Shown here one piece after another: positions 10,979 to 51,868 of a stretch of DNA of 64,000 nucleotides. Position 1 is the first letter of the stretch. Every line of letters starts with the position of its first letter. Origin of the DNA: Zestosphaera sp. Lineage in GTDB: Archaea > Thermoproteota > Thermoprotei_A > Sulfolobales > NBVN01. The notes beneath the pieces were generated by a model that was not told the origin of the DNA, did not search any database, and saw nothing but the letters and a program-made list of their open reading frames with translations. The stretch lies in assembly GCA_038843015.1 (NCBI GenBank), contig JAWBSH010000001.1:62001-126000 (forward strand), given 5' to 3'. A program made the translations under genes and the position numbers.

Positions 10979-11607
10979 GAACTACCCCTAACCCAGTCAT
11001 ACGAGGTTACAAACTTGTAAGTCTTTCTTAAAGCGTCGAATGCCGCGTAAGCAAAGTTTATAGTAGTTCTTGTCTCGCCCTTAGACCAAGACCACACGTC
11101 CCTTATCCCTGCATACCTTAAGATAACCTTAGCTACATCACCCGCGACGAGTCCGGTGCCCTTTGGCGCAGGAGCTAACATTATCCTGACAGACCCACTC
11201 TTACCTTCTATCTTGAACGGCACGCTATGAGGGTCTGTACAAGAACACACCCAACTCCCACAACCTCTCCTCACAGGCGTTATGTTTAGCTTAGCTTCTC
11301 TAATAGCCTTATCTATCGCTTGTCTTATCTGTTTAGCTTTACCAACTCCTAAGCCTATGTACCCGTCGAAATTACCTAAAACTACGACAACCCTAAACTT
11401 ACTTACTTCGCCGGCGTCAGTCTGTTTCTGAACTATGGCTACGTCGAGAACTTCGTGCTTGAGGTTAGGTAGCAGATAATCAACAATCTCAGGCTCTCTG
11501 ATTGTAAGGTTCTGATCAAATATTTCTTTGATACTCGATATCCTGCCTTCCTTAACCATCTTACCTAATTTAGTCTTCGGGATCCACTCACTTAAAGCTT
11601 CGCTCAT
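10975..11607 (-). CDS. rps5: 30S ribosomal protein S5 (uS5)
   Basis: A 210-residue protein with the N-terminal double-stranded RNA-binding-like domain ([28 protein letters not shown]) and the ribosomal S5 fold 2 domain ([27 protein letters not shown]). The archaeal [19 protein letters not shown] loop is present. It overlaps rpl18 and rpl30 by 4 bp at each end. Confidence 0.97.
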
Positions 11608-12218
11608 GTCTCTTCACCTGAAGAAAGGACCTTTAGTATCTTCTCACGTACTTCTTTAAAGTGTTGAGGTAGGTTACGGGGGTCAAGACCTCTCTTAATG
11701 TATTCTCCAAAATACCTCCTGAACAAGTCTTCGTTCTCAAAAGAGAGTTTTCTAGCATACTCTGCTATGTGCTGACCTTCAATCCTTTCTTGAGAAGGCA
11801 CAACTTCCTCAGATACCGGGACTTTAACACCAGCATCTAGCAGGCCCTTTATGGCAGCAAACACGCGAGCACCTTTTGACGCTTTATGAAGTCCTATATC
11901 AGGGATTACTTCATCCACGTTCTTCTTAACAGCTAAAACCCCAGCTAGCAATCCAGTCAAGTAAGCTGCTGGCGTGTTATTCAAGTCTCCTAACCATCCA
12001 TACTTACGCAGAGACTTGCTACTCACCCCTACTATAACCTCATCCCCGTTTACAGAAAACTTCATTATCTGAACTATTATTTGTGTGTTGGTTTTCCTTA
12101 TGACTGCTCTTACTAATCTTCCTGACTTTATCATCCTGTAGCGCTTATAATAGTTTGTCTTACCTTCTCTTCTCCTCCTGTAAGGAACCTTATATGTCGG
12201 TCCGCGAGCCAACCTCAC
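11604..12218 (-). CDS. rpl18: 50S ribosomal protein L18 (uL18)
   Basis: A 204-residue archaeal L18 that binds 5S rRNA. It has a basic N-terminus ([39 protein letters not shown]), an [16 protein letters not shown] helix and [25 protein letters not shown]. It overlaps rpl19e and rps5 by 4 bp each. Confidence 0.97.
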
Positions 12219-48463: not shown

Positions 48464-49081
48464 TTAACTCTTTACTTCCTTAGTACTGAAGTCTTTTCTC
48501 CAGTACTCTGTGAGTCTCTTACGCTTTAGTTCTCTTACTTTCTTGTTAAGAAATCTGTACACTGTTGAGTGTTCTCTTCCTTGAATAAGCATTTCTATCG
48601 CTTCTCTGGCTAGATACGCTCCCTCGTAATCCCCGATAATAGCTACTAAATCATCATAAACACTTATGTAAGTTCCCGTCAGCTGCTCTATGTTTGTTCT
48701 TACTTTTCCCTCCTCACCTATGACTCTTGCTTTAACTCTGTAGAGATGACTCTGTGAATCTCCTATAACTTCTTTTAAGTTTATGATTATTAGTACCATG
48801 TCTTCATCTAATAACCTCAACGCCCTCTCAGGACTGAAGCCTGCGTCAATAGCTTTAATAAAGTCTGAAGCTCTCAATACCATCTCAATAGGTGTCTCAG
48901 GAGTCGCCGCCTCAATTACTACGCTACTGTTTAAACTGTCGACACTCACGATCGTTTGAGTCCTATTCTCAAGATCTCTTAATGTCTTACCACCCTCACC
49001 TATCAACACGCCGAGCCTCTCAGGTCTCACATTTAAATACACTCTCCTCAAACCTTGAGGTACCCTGCCCGCACTACTCAT
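48464..49081 (-). CDS. KH-domain rRNA-processing protein (Dim2/Pno1 homologue)
   Basis: A 205-residue protein with two KH-type domains: VRPERLGVLIGEGGKTLRDLENRTQTIVSVD with GEGG in place of the usual GxxG loop, and a second, YRVKARVIGEEGKVRTNIEQLTGTYISVYDDLVAIIGDYEGAYLAREAIEMLIQGREHSTVYRFL, ending in a basic tail. This is archaeal Dim2/Pno1, a 16S rRNA 3'-end maturation factor. It lies just upstream of rio1-aIF1A-nmd3, which are also ribosome genes, supporting the assignment. Confidence 0.92.
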   Translation of the reverse strand: MSSAGRVPQGLRRVYLNVRPERLGVLIGEGGKTLRDLENRTQTIVSVDSLNSSVVIEAATPETPIEMVLRASDFIKAIDAGFSPERALRLLDEDMVLIIINLKEVIGDSQSHLYRVKARVIGEEGKVRTNIEQLTGTYISVYDDLVAIIGDYEGAYLAREAIEMLIQGREHSTVYRFLNKKVRELKRKRLTEYWRKDFSTKEVKS

Positions 49082-49250: not shown

Positions 49251-49979
49251 TTATTCTAATTCTAGCTTGCTTGTTTTTCCGGTGATGTACTCAAGGACAT
49301 TACTTAGTGTGGGGGTATTGACTCCCACGTACTCGAAGAACCTGATTATGTTTCTTAAGTCTCTCTGTAGCAGATTCGTGGCGTTAGGGTGTGTGATGGG
49401 TACTGCCTGACTAACGTCTATTATGTAGTGTCTCTTGTTCCATATCATTACGTTATACTCGCTCAGATCTCCGTGTACTAACTTAGCTTTTAAGTAAGCT
49501 TTTCTAACGTCCTCGATGATTTGCTGAAAGATTGTTGAGTACTCCTCCGCAGTTAGGTTAGTTTCTTTTAGTAGGGGTGCTCTTACGCCGTCATCTCCTA
49601 TGAATTCCATAACCAACACATTCTCGTACTGGTCTATGGGTTCAGGCACGGAAACTCCCGCCTTAAAAAGCTCAGTAAAGTTGTTGAATTCTTTCTTAGC
49701 CCACAAAATGACTAGCTTCCTAGTAGACTTAGGTATGCTTTTGTCAAATCTGTAATCACCTATTATGTACCTCATCATGCCTTTCCTGAATTCCGCTGAT
49801 GACGTCAAGTATATCTTGACTGCTAAATCACGTCCCTCAGGTCCTTTACCCCAGTAAACTCTTGATTCCTTACCAGCGCTGACGACTCCCTTAAGGTCAC
49901 GTATCACTCCCTTCCTCATCAGCTTAAGAACTGCTTGAACAGTTGCTCTATCAAAAACTTCTTCTACAGTCTCGAACAA
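49251..49979 (-). CDS. rio1: RIO1-type atypical protein kinase
   Basis: At least 242 residues. It has the ATP loop VSAGKESRVYWGKGPEGRDLAVKIYLTS, the catalytic loop VHGDLSEYNVMIWN and the metal-binding YIIDVSQAV, all typical of Rio1, which acts in late 40S/30S subunit maturation. The TTG at 49979 yields a short N-terminus. The same frame continues upstream for 28 codons of RIO1-like sequence (AFFRVRDKERKIIDEDLFETVEEVFD) to an ATA at 50063 that overlaps the aIF1A stop as TAATA and follows GGGTGAG at the right distance. A start at ATA would give 270 residues. Upstream of that is an in-frame TGA. Confidence 0.93.
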   Translation of the reverse strand: MFETVEEVFDRATVQAVLKLMRKGVIRDLKGVVSAGKESRVYWGKGPEGRDLAVKIYLTSSAEFRKGMMRYIIGDYRFDKSIPKSTRKLVILWAKKEFNNFTELFKAGVSVPEPIDQYENVLVMEFIGDDGVRAPLLKETNLTAEEYSTIFQQIIEDVRKAYLKAKLVHGDLSEYNVMIWNKRHYIIDVSQAVPITHPNATNLLQRDLRNIIRFFEYVGVNTPTLSNVLEYITGKTSKLELE

Positions 49980-50062
49980 GTCCTCATCTATTATCTTACG
50001 TTCTTTATCTCTGACTCTAAAAAACGCGTCGATTGCTGAGTCTTCAGGCTCTCCACGCGATA

Positions 50063-50392
50063 TTAAAGCTCACCCACACCCTCAGTTAGTGAAGGGTCTA
50101 AGAACCCCATCTCAATAAGCTTCTTCTTCTCATCTCTCCCGTACTTGTATAGGATGTCTCCCCTACCCTCGTCAAACTCCCACTTACCGACTAAGACTAC
50201 ATCTTTAACGTTTATCCAAACTTTATGCCTGAGTTTCCCAGGTATTCTCAGCTTCCGCTCTTTCCCGTCCATACATATGGCTTTCACGTAGTTGCCTCCC
50301 ATAGGCTCGGTAACTACGCAAACTACAGTACCTTCATCAGGGTTAGGGTAAGGAGTTTCCGAGACTGCGTCAACCTTCTTCTTGCCCAACAC
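50063..50392 (-). CDS. eif1A: Translation initiation factor aIF1A
   Basis: A 109-residue OB-fold initiation factor: PNPDEGTVVCVVTEPMGGNYVKAICMDGKERKLRIPGKLRHKVWINVKDVVLVGKWEFDEGRGDILYKY is an almost textbook aIF1A. It stimulates 30S initiation with aIF1. It lies between nmd3 and rio1, one base overlapping the proposed rio1 start. Confidence 0.97.
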   Translation of the reverse strand: MLGKKKVDAVSETPYPNPDEGTVVCVVTEPMGGNYVKAICMDGKERKLRIPGKLRHKVWINVKDVVLVGKWEFDEGRGDILYKYGRDEKKKLIEMGFLDPSLTEGVGEL

Positions 50393-50453: not shown

Positions 50454-51503
50454 TTATCTCCCTGCTAGCCGCTTAACATAATTTGAGCCCCTATACGTTA
50501 TTATCTGGATCCTCTCTCCAACACTCAAGTACTTAGGGAAGCTAGTCTTGACTGTCGCTCCCTCCTCACATCTAGCAATGACTTCATAGTTTTTGAAGTC
50601 TGTCACCACACACTCGCTGACCGCGTAATCTTCAGAACTTAACAGTCTGAACTCGTCTCTGGTTAAGGATTTCACGCCTATCTTCAAGACTTCATCCCTA
50701 GCTAGGTCTCTTAGAACTAGCTTGTCTTTCTGGATGCTGAGGACCTCCATTAGTGAATCCCTAAAATCTATTAAGTCTCCGGGAACTAACTGAGGAATTC
50801 TCAACACTATGGATAACTTGCCGTGTCTCTTACCTCTTACTATCCCGTGGAGTTTCCACGATTCCTTGACATACCCTCCAAGCATGCCTTGCAAGTAGCT
50901 TGCTGCTTGCCGAGCTACCGATACGTTACTAAACTTTACGTTTATTCCTTCACGTAATTCCTCATAGTCTGTTATGTTGCTACTAATGCTCCTCACGCTA
51001 CCTATCAACTTAGCTATCCTCTTCTTCACCCCTTCCGTAGGTTCTCCCACAAATCTTATCTGTAGTACAGCTTCGTAGTCTCTAGTCTTAACACTCAAGC
51101 ACTTAGGACATAACCTAGCGTCTATCTTGTAACTAACTATGAATGCTTGCTCTACAGATTTGCCAGCAAATGAAGACTTTATGAGCAACTCCGCACGATT
51201 GTTGCCAGTACTCAAAACCGCTACCTGAATATCTTTGAATGCCGGGTGAGTCTTCCCCTTCTTTATCACAGCCTCATCAATATAGTATCGTATTAGTTCT
51301 TCGTCATTTCCCGTGGAAGGTATCCATGAACCACTCATGTAGAGAGACCCGCAAACAGGACATCTTACTAAAGCTATCTTATCAGGGACACTTACTATAG
51401 GTCTCTCTCTAACGAAGCAATCTACGCATAAGCCATCGATTAACGGTTCATTACTGGTCTCCCTCTTCCCACACCTCAAGCAAAACCTGCCAGCAAAACT
51501 CAT
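50454..51503 (-). CDS. nmd3: NMD3 family ribosome export/assembly protein
   Basis: A 349-residue homologue of the eukaryotic 60S export adaptor NMD3. The N-terminal zinc region has repeated CxxC pairs: CLRCGKRE, GLCVDCF, RCPVCGSLYMSGSW and ARLCPKCLSVKTRDYEAVLQIRF. These precede the mixed alpha/beta domain and a C-terminal OB-like part (RDLARDEVLKIGVKSLTRDEFRLL). The archaeal role is presumed to be in large-subunit biogenesis. It overlaps the DUF424 gene by 4 bp. Confidence 0.9.
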   Translation of the reverse strand: MSFAGRFCLRCGKRETSNEPLIDGLCVDCFVRERPIVSVPDKIALVRCPVCGSLYMSGSWIPSTGNDEELIRYYIDEAVIKKGKTHPAFKDIQVAVLSTGNNRAELLIKSSFAGKSVEQAFIVSYKIDARLCPKCLSVKTRDYEAVLQIRFVGEPTEGVKKRIAKLIGSVRSISSNITDYEELREGINVKFSNVSVARQAASYLQGMLGGYVKESWKLHGIVRGKRHGKLSIVLRIPQLVPGDLIDFRDSLMEVLSIQKDKLVLRDLARDEVLKIGVKSLTRDEFRLLSSEDYAVSECVVTDFKNYEVIARCEEGATVKTSFPKYLSVGERIQIITYRGSNYVKRLAGR

Positions 51504-51868
51504 AACCTAACCACCTGAGCGTAAGGCACGCCACTCACCCTAAGTATAGCGTCGGGATGCACTAACCCTTCTTCAACGGCTCTGCTTACGGAGGCCTCAC
51601 CCGCGAGAACAACTATGGAAGCATTCCTTGCGTGATGCATAGCTTCGTTTAGGGTAGTTAAAAACCCCTTAAAAAACTCTTCATTCACGTGCAACACGAC
51701 ATTACCTTCCTGAAATTTTTTCCCTAGAAGTTCTTCATCACATATAGCTACTATCTCCCTAAAGTCTTGAGATATGTCGGTAGTAGCGTGTATCTTCACA
51801 TAAACCATTACTTGAGACTCAGAACCTCCTTCAAGACTTGAAGACTCGTCTTTACTCAAGACGCTCAA
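51500..51868 (-). CDS. DUF424 family protein
   Basis: A 122-residue protein. From MVYVKIHATTD (residue 21, base 51808) it matches DUF424: VYVKIHATTDISQDFREIVAICDEELLGKKFQEGNVVLHVNEEFFKG..., then ARNASIVVLAGEASVSRAVEEGLVHPDAILRVSGVPYAQVV. The first 20 residues (Ser/Glu-rich) may not be translated, although GGAGG sits just within them rather than before the ATG at 51808. DUF424 is widespread in archaea beside nmd3 and aIF2beta, and suspected of a translation role; function unknown. Confidence 0.82.
   Translation of the reverse strand: MSVLSKDESSSLEGGSESQVMVYVKIHATTDISQDFREIVAICDEELLGKKFQEGNVVLHVNEEFFKGFLTTLNEAMHHARNASIVVLAGEASVSRAVEEGLVHPDAILRVSGVPYAQVVRL

Follow-up and report, generated by a model that had tools for sequence, protein, structure and literature searches.

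Reports exist on bacterial genes that begin at codons other than ATG, GTG or TTG. The gene infC, which encodes initiation factor IF3, starts at AUU or, in Staphylococcus aureus, at AUA (PMC13009471), and reporters for three bacterial non-canonical starts besides S. aureus infC, tested in poor medium, reached about 10% of AUG; for AUA starts in bacteria the yield is put at roughly a tenth (PMC13009471). The archaeal gene rio1, as described here, resembles infC in having a near-cognate start conserved within a lineage, a good Shine-Dalgarno (SD) element and a function in the translation machinery. It differs from infC in being archaeal, in encoding a 30S-maturation kinase rather than an initiation factor, in the absence of any demonstrated autoregulation, in the use of several different codons across families, and in having a neighbour, aIF1A, that sometimes shares the trait. 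Of two criteria that can be drawn from infC, rio1 meets one, a conserved start other than ATG, GTG or TTG with an SD at normal spacing (inferred from sequence, without a peptide), and fails the other, since its product does not discriminate against its own start; it may work alike but is not a member of the class. In Firmicutes, cvfC1 (AUU) and ccpN (AUA) also combine a non-canonical start with a strong SD conserved across species (PMC13009471), although they encode unrelated proteins and do not overlap an initiation-factor gene. Gene overlaps are known to favour re-initiation (PMC10666635), and rio1 has the geometry of the termination-reinitiation pairs (−1 nt TAATG, −4 nt ATGA), except that most members of the present organism's family have ATA instead of ATG. 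The same study takes all start codons to end in G, whereas that of rio1 ends in A and the trait outlasts the overlap. In eukaryotes, eIF1 autoregulation likewise rests on a weak start in the gene of a start-selection factor, which is read more when stringency falls. There, however, the weakness lies in context and not in the codon, ribosomes scan and the gene is the factor's own, whereas in archaea it is most often the neighbour, rio1, that bears the weak start. Archaeal aIF1 has been shown to disfavour and destabilise non-AUG complexes (PMC6237735, PMC8211752). For the terms tried, nothing in the literature searched describes archaeal rio1 or aIF1A as starting at AUA or CUG. AUA starts are thus already known in bacteria, and what appears new, within that literature, is an archaeal AUA start that is family-wide and has repeatedly been exchanged for other weak codons.

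The locus lies in a stretch of 64,000 nucleotides of Zestosphaera sp., referred to below as the window. The features concerned are as follows.

49251–50063, minus strand: rio1 coding sequence read from ATA, 270 residues plus stop (TAA, 49253–49251)
50061–50063, minus strand: ATA, the proposed rio1 start, with no canonical start in frame and conserved SD spacing
50070–50074, minus strand: GGTGA, SD element, complementary to TCACC at the 16S 3' end
49980–50060, minus strand: stretch of 27 codons from ATA to the first standard start, coding and under purifying selection
49977–49979, minus strand: TTG, the sole standard start near the head of rio1, judged an ordinary Leu codon
50063–50392, minus strand: aIF1A, the upstream cistron (PF01176, NF003082)
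48464–49081, minus strand: KH-domain protein, the next gene downstream of rio1, used as a control gene
50454–51503, minus strand: NMD3-like gene upstream of aIF1A, used as a control gene

The KH-domain gene is one that we take to be Pno1/Dim2-like, by resemblance, and the gene at 50454–51503 is taken to be NMD3-like from its sequence. The identity of aIF-1A rests on a match to NF003082 (123.1 bits; cut-off 108), with PF01176 matching also. In the rio1 frame the RIO domain PF01163 is found at residues 69–250 (E 1.7e-60), and the closest solved structures are human and archaeal RIO1. The P-loop and catalytic motifs of RIO1 are known to be S.GKE, HxDLSEYN and IDxSQ. In the RIO1 alignment the corresponding GKE, HGDLSEYN-type and IDVSQ motifs are invariant (G64, K65, E66; D199, S201, E202, N204; I215, D216, S218, Q219), and the N-terminus is conserved. 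By both domain and motifs the product belongs to the RIO1 protein kinase/ATPase family.

On the minus strand the head of rio1 reads TGA (50072–50070) GCT TTA ATA (50063–50061) TCG CGT, and the in-frame stop TGA is itself part of the GGTGA element. The first-pass annotation had claimed that no ATG, GTG or TTG precedes the TTG at 49979–49977, 28 codons past ATA, back to this stop, and the claim held letter for letter. It had also described the ATA as overlapping the aIF1A stop in the form TAATA; this held, the stop TAA at 50065–50063 having one base in common with ATA. Its third claim, of a properly spaced GGGTGAG, held as well: GGTGA (50074–50070) lies 6 nt from ATA, the modal spacing of the control genes, and complements the TCACC in GGATCACCTCC, with which the 16S of this genome ends. 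Among 316 ribosomal-protein genes with canonical starts, spacing peaked at 6 nt (114 genes) and fell at 5–7 nt in 191, and no SD was found in 23. The emphasis on TAATA as an analogue of TAATG held in part. The overlap is real, yet it is not essential, because relatives with ATAA or ATAG, and two genomes with a different upstream gene, L042 and L123, keep both ATA and SD. Alignment of the 28 residues with relatives, which had been named as a check, has been carried out and places the N-terminal residues under purifying selection. Over the 24 codons between ATA and a conserved anchor, pN/pS was 0.27, 0.23 and 0.26 against the congeners L002, L003 and L004, and six other pairs gave 0.00–0.22 for the N-terminal codons. 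The codons after ATA evolve as protein. The central claim, that ATA is the rio1 start, is supported and is strongly strengthened by the comparison below; it is by far the best reading, without an N-terminal peptide or a ribosome footprint.

The family of the window (f1) was searched in 31 genomes, of which 30 contained rio1, and every aIF1A–rio1 junction was compared. A start was called non-canonical where no ATG, GTG or TTG occurred up to the conserved D-x-D-L anchor. By this definition rio1 lacked a canonical start in 18 of the 30 genomes, with 16 ATA in six genera, one ATT (L011) and one GTA (L027). By SD position, ATA stood at a spacing of exactly 6 in 19 genomes, 7 in L013 and 5 in L006, and the same GGTGA or GGTGG was found at the same distance from ATA in most f1 genera. 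In L006 the only canonical codon, a GTG, falls inside the SD. Canonical starts were ATG in L005, TTG or GTG in L019–L021 and GTG in L029–L030, and L016 was ambiguous; nine of the 30 genomes are listed as a real or possible exception to ATA, including L006, L016 and L027, the only one with GTA. A tree of RIO1 protein bodies, on which L006 and L016 were entered as ATA, needs no more than six start-codon changes, at least two of them to non-canonical codons. The first canonical codon lies past the kinase P-loop in L013, L014, L023 and L028, so internal initiation cannot yield an active enzyme there; in L017 and L027 it lies 3–4 codons before the P-loop. A separate observation concerns L027, where GTA occupies SD spacing 6 and overlaps the aIF1A stop as GTAA; initiation at GTA would be very unusual.

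Control genes of the same family gave low counts. Eleven ribosomal-protein genes across the family lacked a canonical start in 1 of 325 cases (one row dropped), and comparison with the 18 of 30 for rio1 by Fisher's test gave p 2e-21, a value that is overstated because the test treats kin genomes as independent. The counts were 0/22 for the KH gene, 1/21 for NMD3 (one row dropped) and 3/30 for aIF1A. A second set of loci gave NMD3 1/28, an aIF2beta-like gene 0/28 and the small gene at 51500–51868 0/25 (three rows dropped), and aIF1 gave 0/28 (one row dropped). Ribosomal controls in two families that use CTG for rio1 gave 0/66 (f7) and 0/75 (f2), with L413 left out as no anchor was found. The sole ribosomal exception, in L285, is a homologue of the window gene at 11604–12218 and has CTG 6 nt after GGTGA. 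NMD3 without a canonical start was seen with ACG 6 nt after GGTGA in L103 and with CTG similarly spaced after AGGTG in L376.

The order was represented by 214 genomes, 196 of them with rio1; 177 were judged, the others being not fetched or dropped. L214 (no anchor) and L089 and L090 (duplicates of L231 and L232) were left out of the count. Selecting starts by SD alone outside f1, f2, f7 and f10 also picks chance GAGG motifs in proper-ATG genes, as in f9, and therefore only genes without any canonical codon were counted as non-canonical. Such genes made up 38 of 177 and occurred in 8 of 11 families: f1 18/30, f2 4/18, f3 0/2, f4 2/6, f5 3/39, f6 0/2, f7 6/10, f8 1/4, f9 0/33 (canonical in all 33), f10 2/3 and f11 2/30. 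The SD-positioned codon was CTG in f2, f7, f8 and f10, ATA in f4, f5 and f11, and ATT once in f5. Four f7 genomes (L210, L219, L228, L412) contain an incidental GTG or TTG, yet have CTG at the SD too. Among 35 non-canonical loci with a GGTG-type SD, a near-cognate codon followed at 5–7 nt in the rio1 frame in 28 and in each of the other frames in none, which shows that its presence in the rio1 frame is not chance. Five of the 38 (L027, L180, L183, L186, L196) had no near-cognate codon 4–8 nt from the SD. Among 28 further named loci, L120, L132 and L143 have ATA and L145 has ATC, each 7 nt after the SD and without a canonical codon, and 23 hold a canonical codon; L133 has none, and was not counted as its head looks disrupted. 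In the Sulfolobaceae-like family f11, where rio1 mostly starts with TTG, L253 and L260 lack a canonical start and have ATA 7 nt from GAGG.

For the neighbouring aIF1A, 8 of 167 genomes had no canonical start, the codon in its place following a GGTG-type SD. Read from the heads, it was CTG in L010, L011, L025, L180 and L186 and ATA in L031, L038 and L045, and six of the eight genomes also lack a canonical rio1 start. The aIF1A stop and the rio1 start overlap by 1 or 4 nt in 26 of 30 f1 genomes (not in L005, L006, L020 and L021). Offset +2 (TAATA, TGATA, TAATT, TAGTG) was seen in 16 of 30, 14 of these with ATA or ATT, and offset −1 (ATAA, ATAG and alike) in 10 of 30. Translational coupling of aIF1A and rio1 is likely where the overlap exists, with dependence on upstream translation an inference. 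The f4 genomes L042 and L123 keep ATA and SD with a different gene upstream, and therefore the weak start goes with rio1 itself.

Several other explanations can be offered for these heads. The most serious accepts the AUA start and denies it a regulatory role, regarding it as a by-product of tight overlap and slightly lax initiation, in which the stop of an ATGA overlap changes from TGA to TAA or TAG and ATG thereby becomes ATA. In its favour are the offset −1 genomes, nine of which have ATAA, ATAG or GTAA-type heads with the third base fixed by the stop, and the rare non-canonical starts elsewhere (aIF1A, the NMD3 genes of L103 and L376, one ribosomal gene). In the offset −1 class the stop does partly dictate the third base, and this may be the origin of ATA there. 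In the 14 TAATA/TGATA genomes, however, the stop does not set that base, and ATA persists where one transition would restore ATG. The by-product view also leaves unexplained the recurrence with CTG in families without that overlap, and ribosomal genes, whose operons are just as tight, do not show non-canonical starts; we consider it less likely than not. Looser initiation in the whole family, through an altered initiator tRNA or factor, would make rio1 one of many affected genes. Isolated non-canonical starts of aIF1A, NMD3 and a single ribosomal protein point that way, but the control counts (ribosomal, aIF1, aIF2beta-like and KH) and the ordinary use of ATA for Ile within rio1 make this improbable. 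Reassignment of the codon had been considered and was set aside: 262 of 464 Ile codons (56%) in rio1 bodies are ATA, and ATA is therefore not reassigned.

The remaining alternatives deny the ATA start altogether. Translation from TTG 49979, the first standard start, would give a Rio1 shorter by 28 residues that retains most of the winged-helix region and the whole kinase domain. Against this, the position is not TTG in the ATA congeners L002, L003 and L004, the preceding GAGG is not at start-codon distance and leaves the TTG without a properly placed SD, the upstream residues are under purifying selection, and four relatives have no canonical codon before the P-loop; we regard this reading as most improbable. 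Ribosomes might instead shift into the −1 frame as they complete aIF1A and make an aIF1A–Rio1 fusion, in which rio1 needs no start of its own; this is suggested by the −1 frame of rio1 relative to aIF1A in the 26 overlapping f1 pairs. But the frames differ in L005 (offset 9), L006 (4) and L021 (25), ATA and SD remain in L042 and L123 behind a different gene, and no slippery heptamer is common to the junctions, so that a fusion can hardly be entertained. Finally, the assembly of this genome comprises 20 contigs, and the true base might give ATG, a worry that the first-pass annotation had raised. In L002, L003, L004 and further genera, all separate assemblies, ATA has an unchanged position and SD spacing, which excludes a lone base error and makes any assembly error all but untenable.

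The reading preferred here is that rio1 starts at AUA by SD-dependent near-cognate initiation, with the weakness kept to hold Rio1 scarce. It is likely, at a probability of roughly 0.82, without protein, footprint or reporter data. Its parts are not equally firm. The AUA start, though inferred from sequence alone, is very probable; a dosage role that keeps Rio1 low is also inferred, and the balance tips only modestly in its favour. In the proposed mechanism GGUGA would pair with the 16S rRNA 3' end and so bring AUA into the P site; the usual Met initiator tRNA, whose anticodon is CAU, would start there with a third-base mismatch, so that Rio1 is predicted to begin with Met. The exact usual anticodon-arm pattern of the initiator tRNA had no match in the genome itself (G000); the cause is probably an intron or a different loop, perhaps a missing contig, and no claim is made on the initiator. 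Ribosomes that end aIF1A on the overlapping UAA would re-start at once on AUA. AUA initiates poorly, and Rio1 output is accordingly proposed to be only a small fraction of that of aIF1A. That selection holds the weak start is inferred from its persistence across the family and from CUG and AUU at the same place in other families. The purpose is probably to keep Rio1, the licenser of new small subunits, scarce. In yeast with excess Rio1, miscleaved 18S rRNA accumulates and quality control of the rRNA 3' end is spoiled (PMC11045238). As a further step, Rio1 output may rise when start selection is lax (aIF1 or aIF1A low), in the manner of bacterial infC; such feedback on initiation stringency is a possibility only, by inference, as no regulation has been shown.

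Three points stand against the preferred reading. The weak start is dispensable, as f9 throughout and several members of f1 have canonical starts, and where the overlap is ATAA or ATAG, the stop codon in part determines the ATA. In addition, Sulfolobus acidocaldarius and Haloferax volcanii survive without Rio1 (PMC7897474), and tight dosage control is therefore not obviously vital. A bolder reading is conceivable, in which Thermoproteota have their own infC-like circuit built on near-cognate rio1 starts (AUA, CUG, AUU, AUC). With aIF1A and NMD3 added in some lineages, the supply of maturation factors might even be tied to stringency and to a correct 16S 3' end. Yeast Rio1 is known to check the 3' end of the small-subunit rRNA, and the proposed loop would close on itself because in archaea this end is the anti-SD, on which the pairing of the rio1 SD depends.

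For archaea, gene finders and reviews work on the assumption that starts are ATG, GTG or TTG, and Rio1 N-termini are, by inference, probably mis-annotated in genomes of this kind. With rio1, start-codon fidelity in archaea becomes testable on a natural mRNA. The gene governs how new small subunits enter translation, and its neighbour encodes a start-selection factor, aIF1A. An AUA start kept through the family, with CUG or AUU elsewhere, would mean that archaea make deliberate use of near-cognate initiation, and do so on a specific gene.
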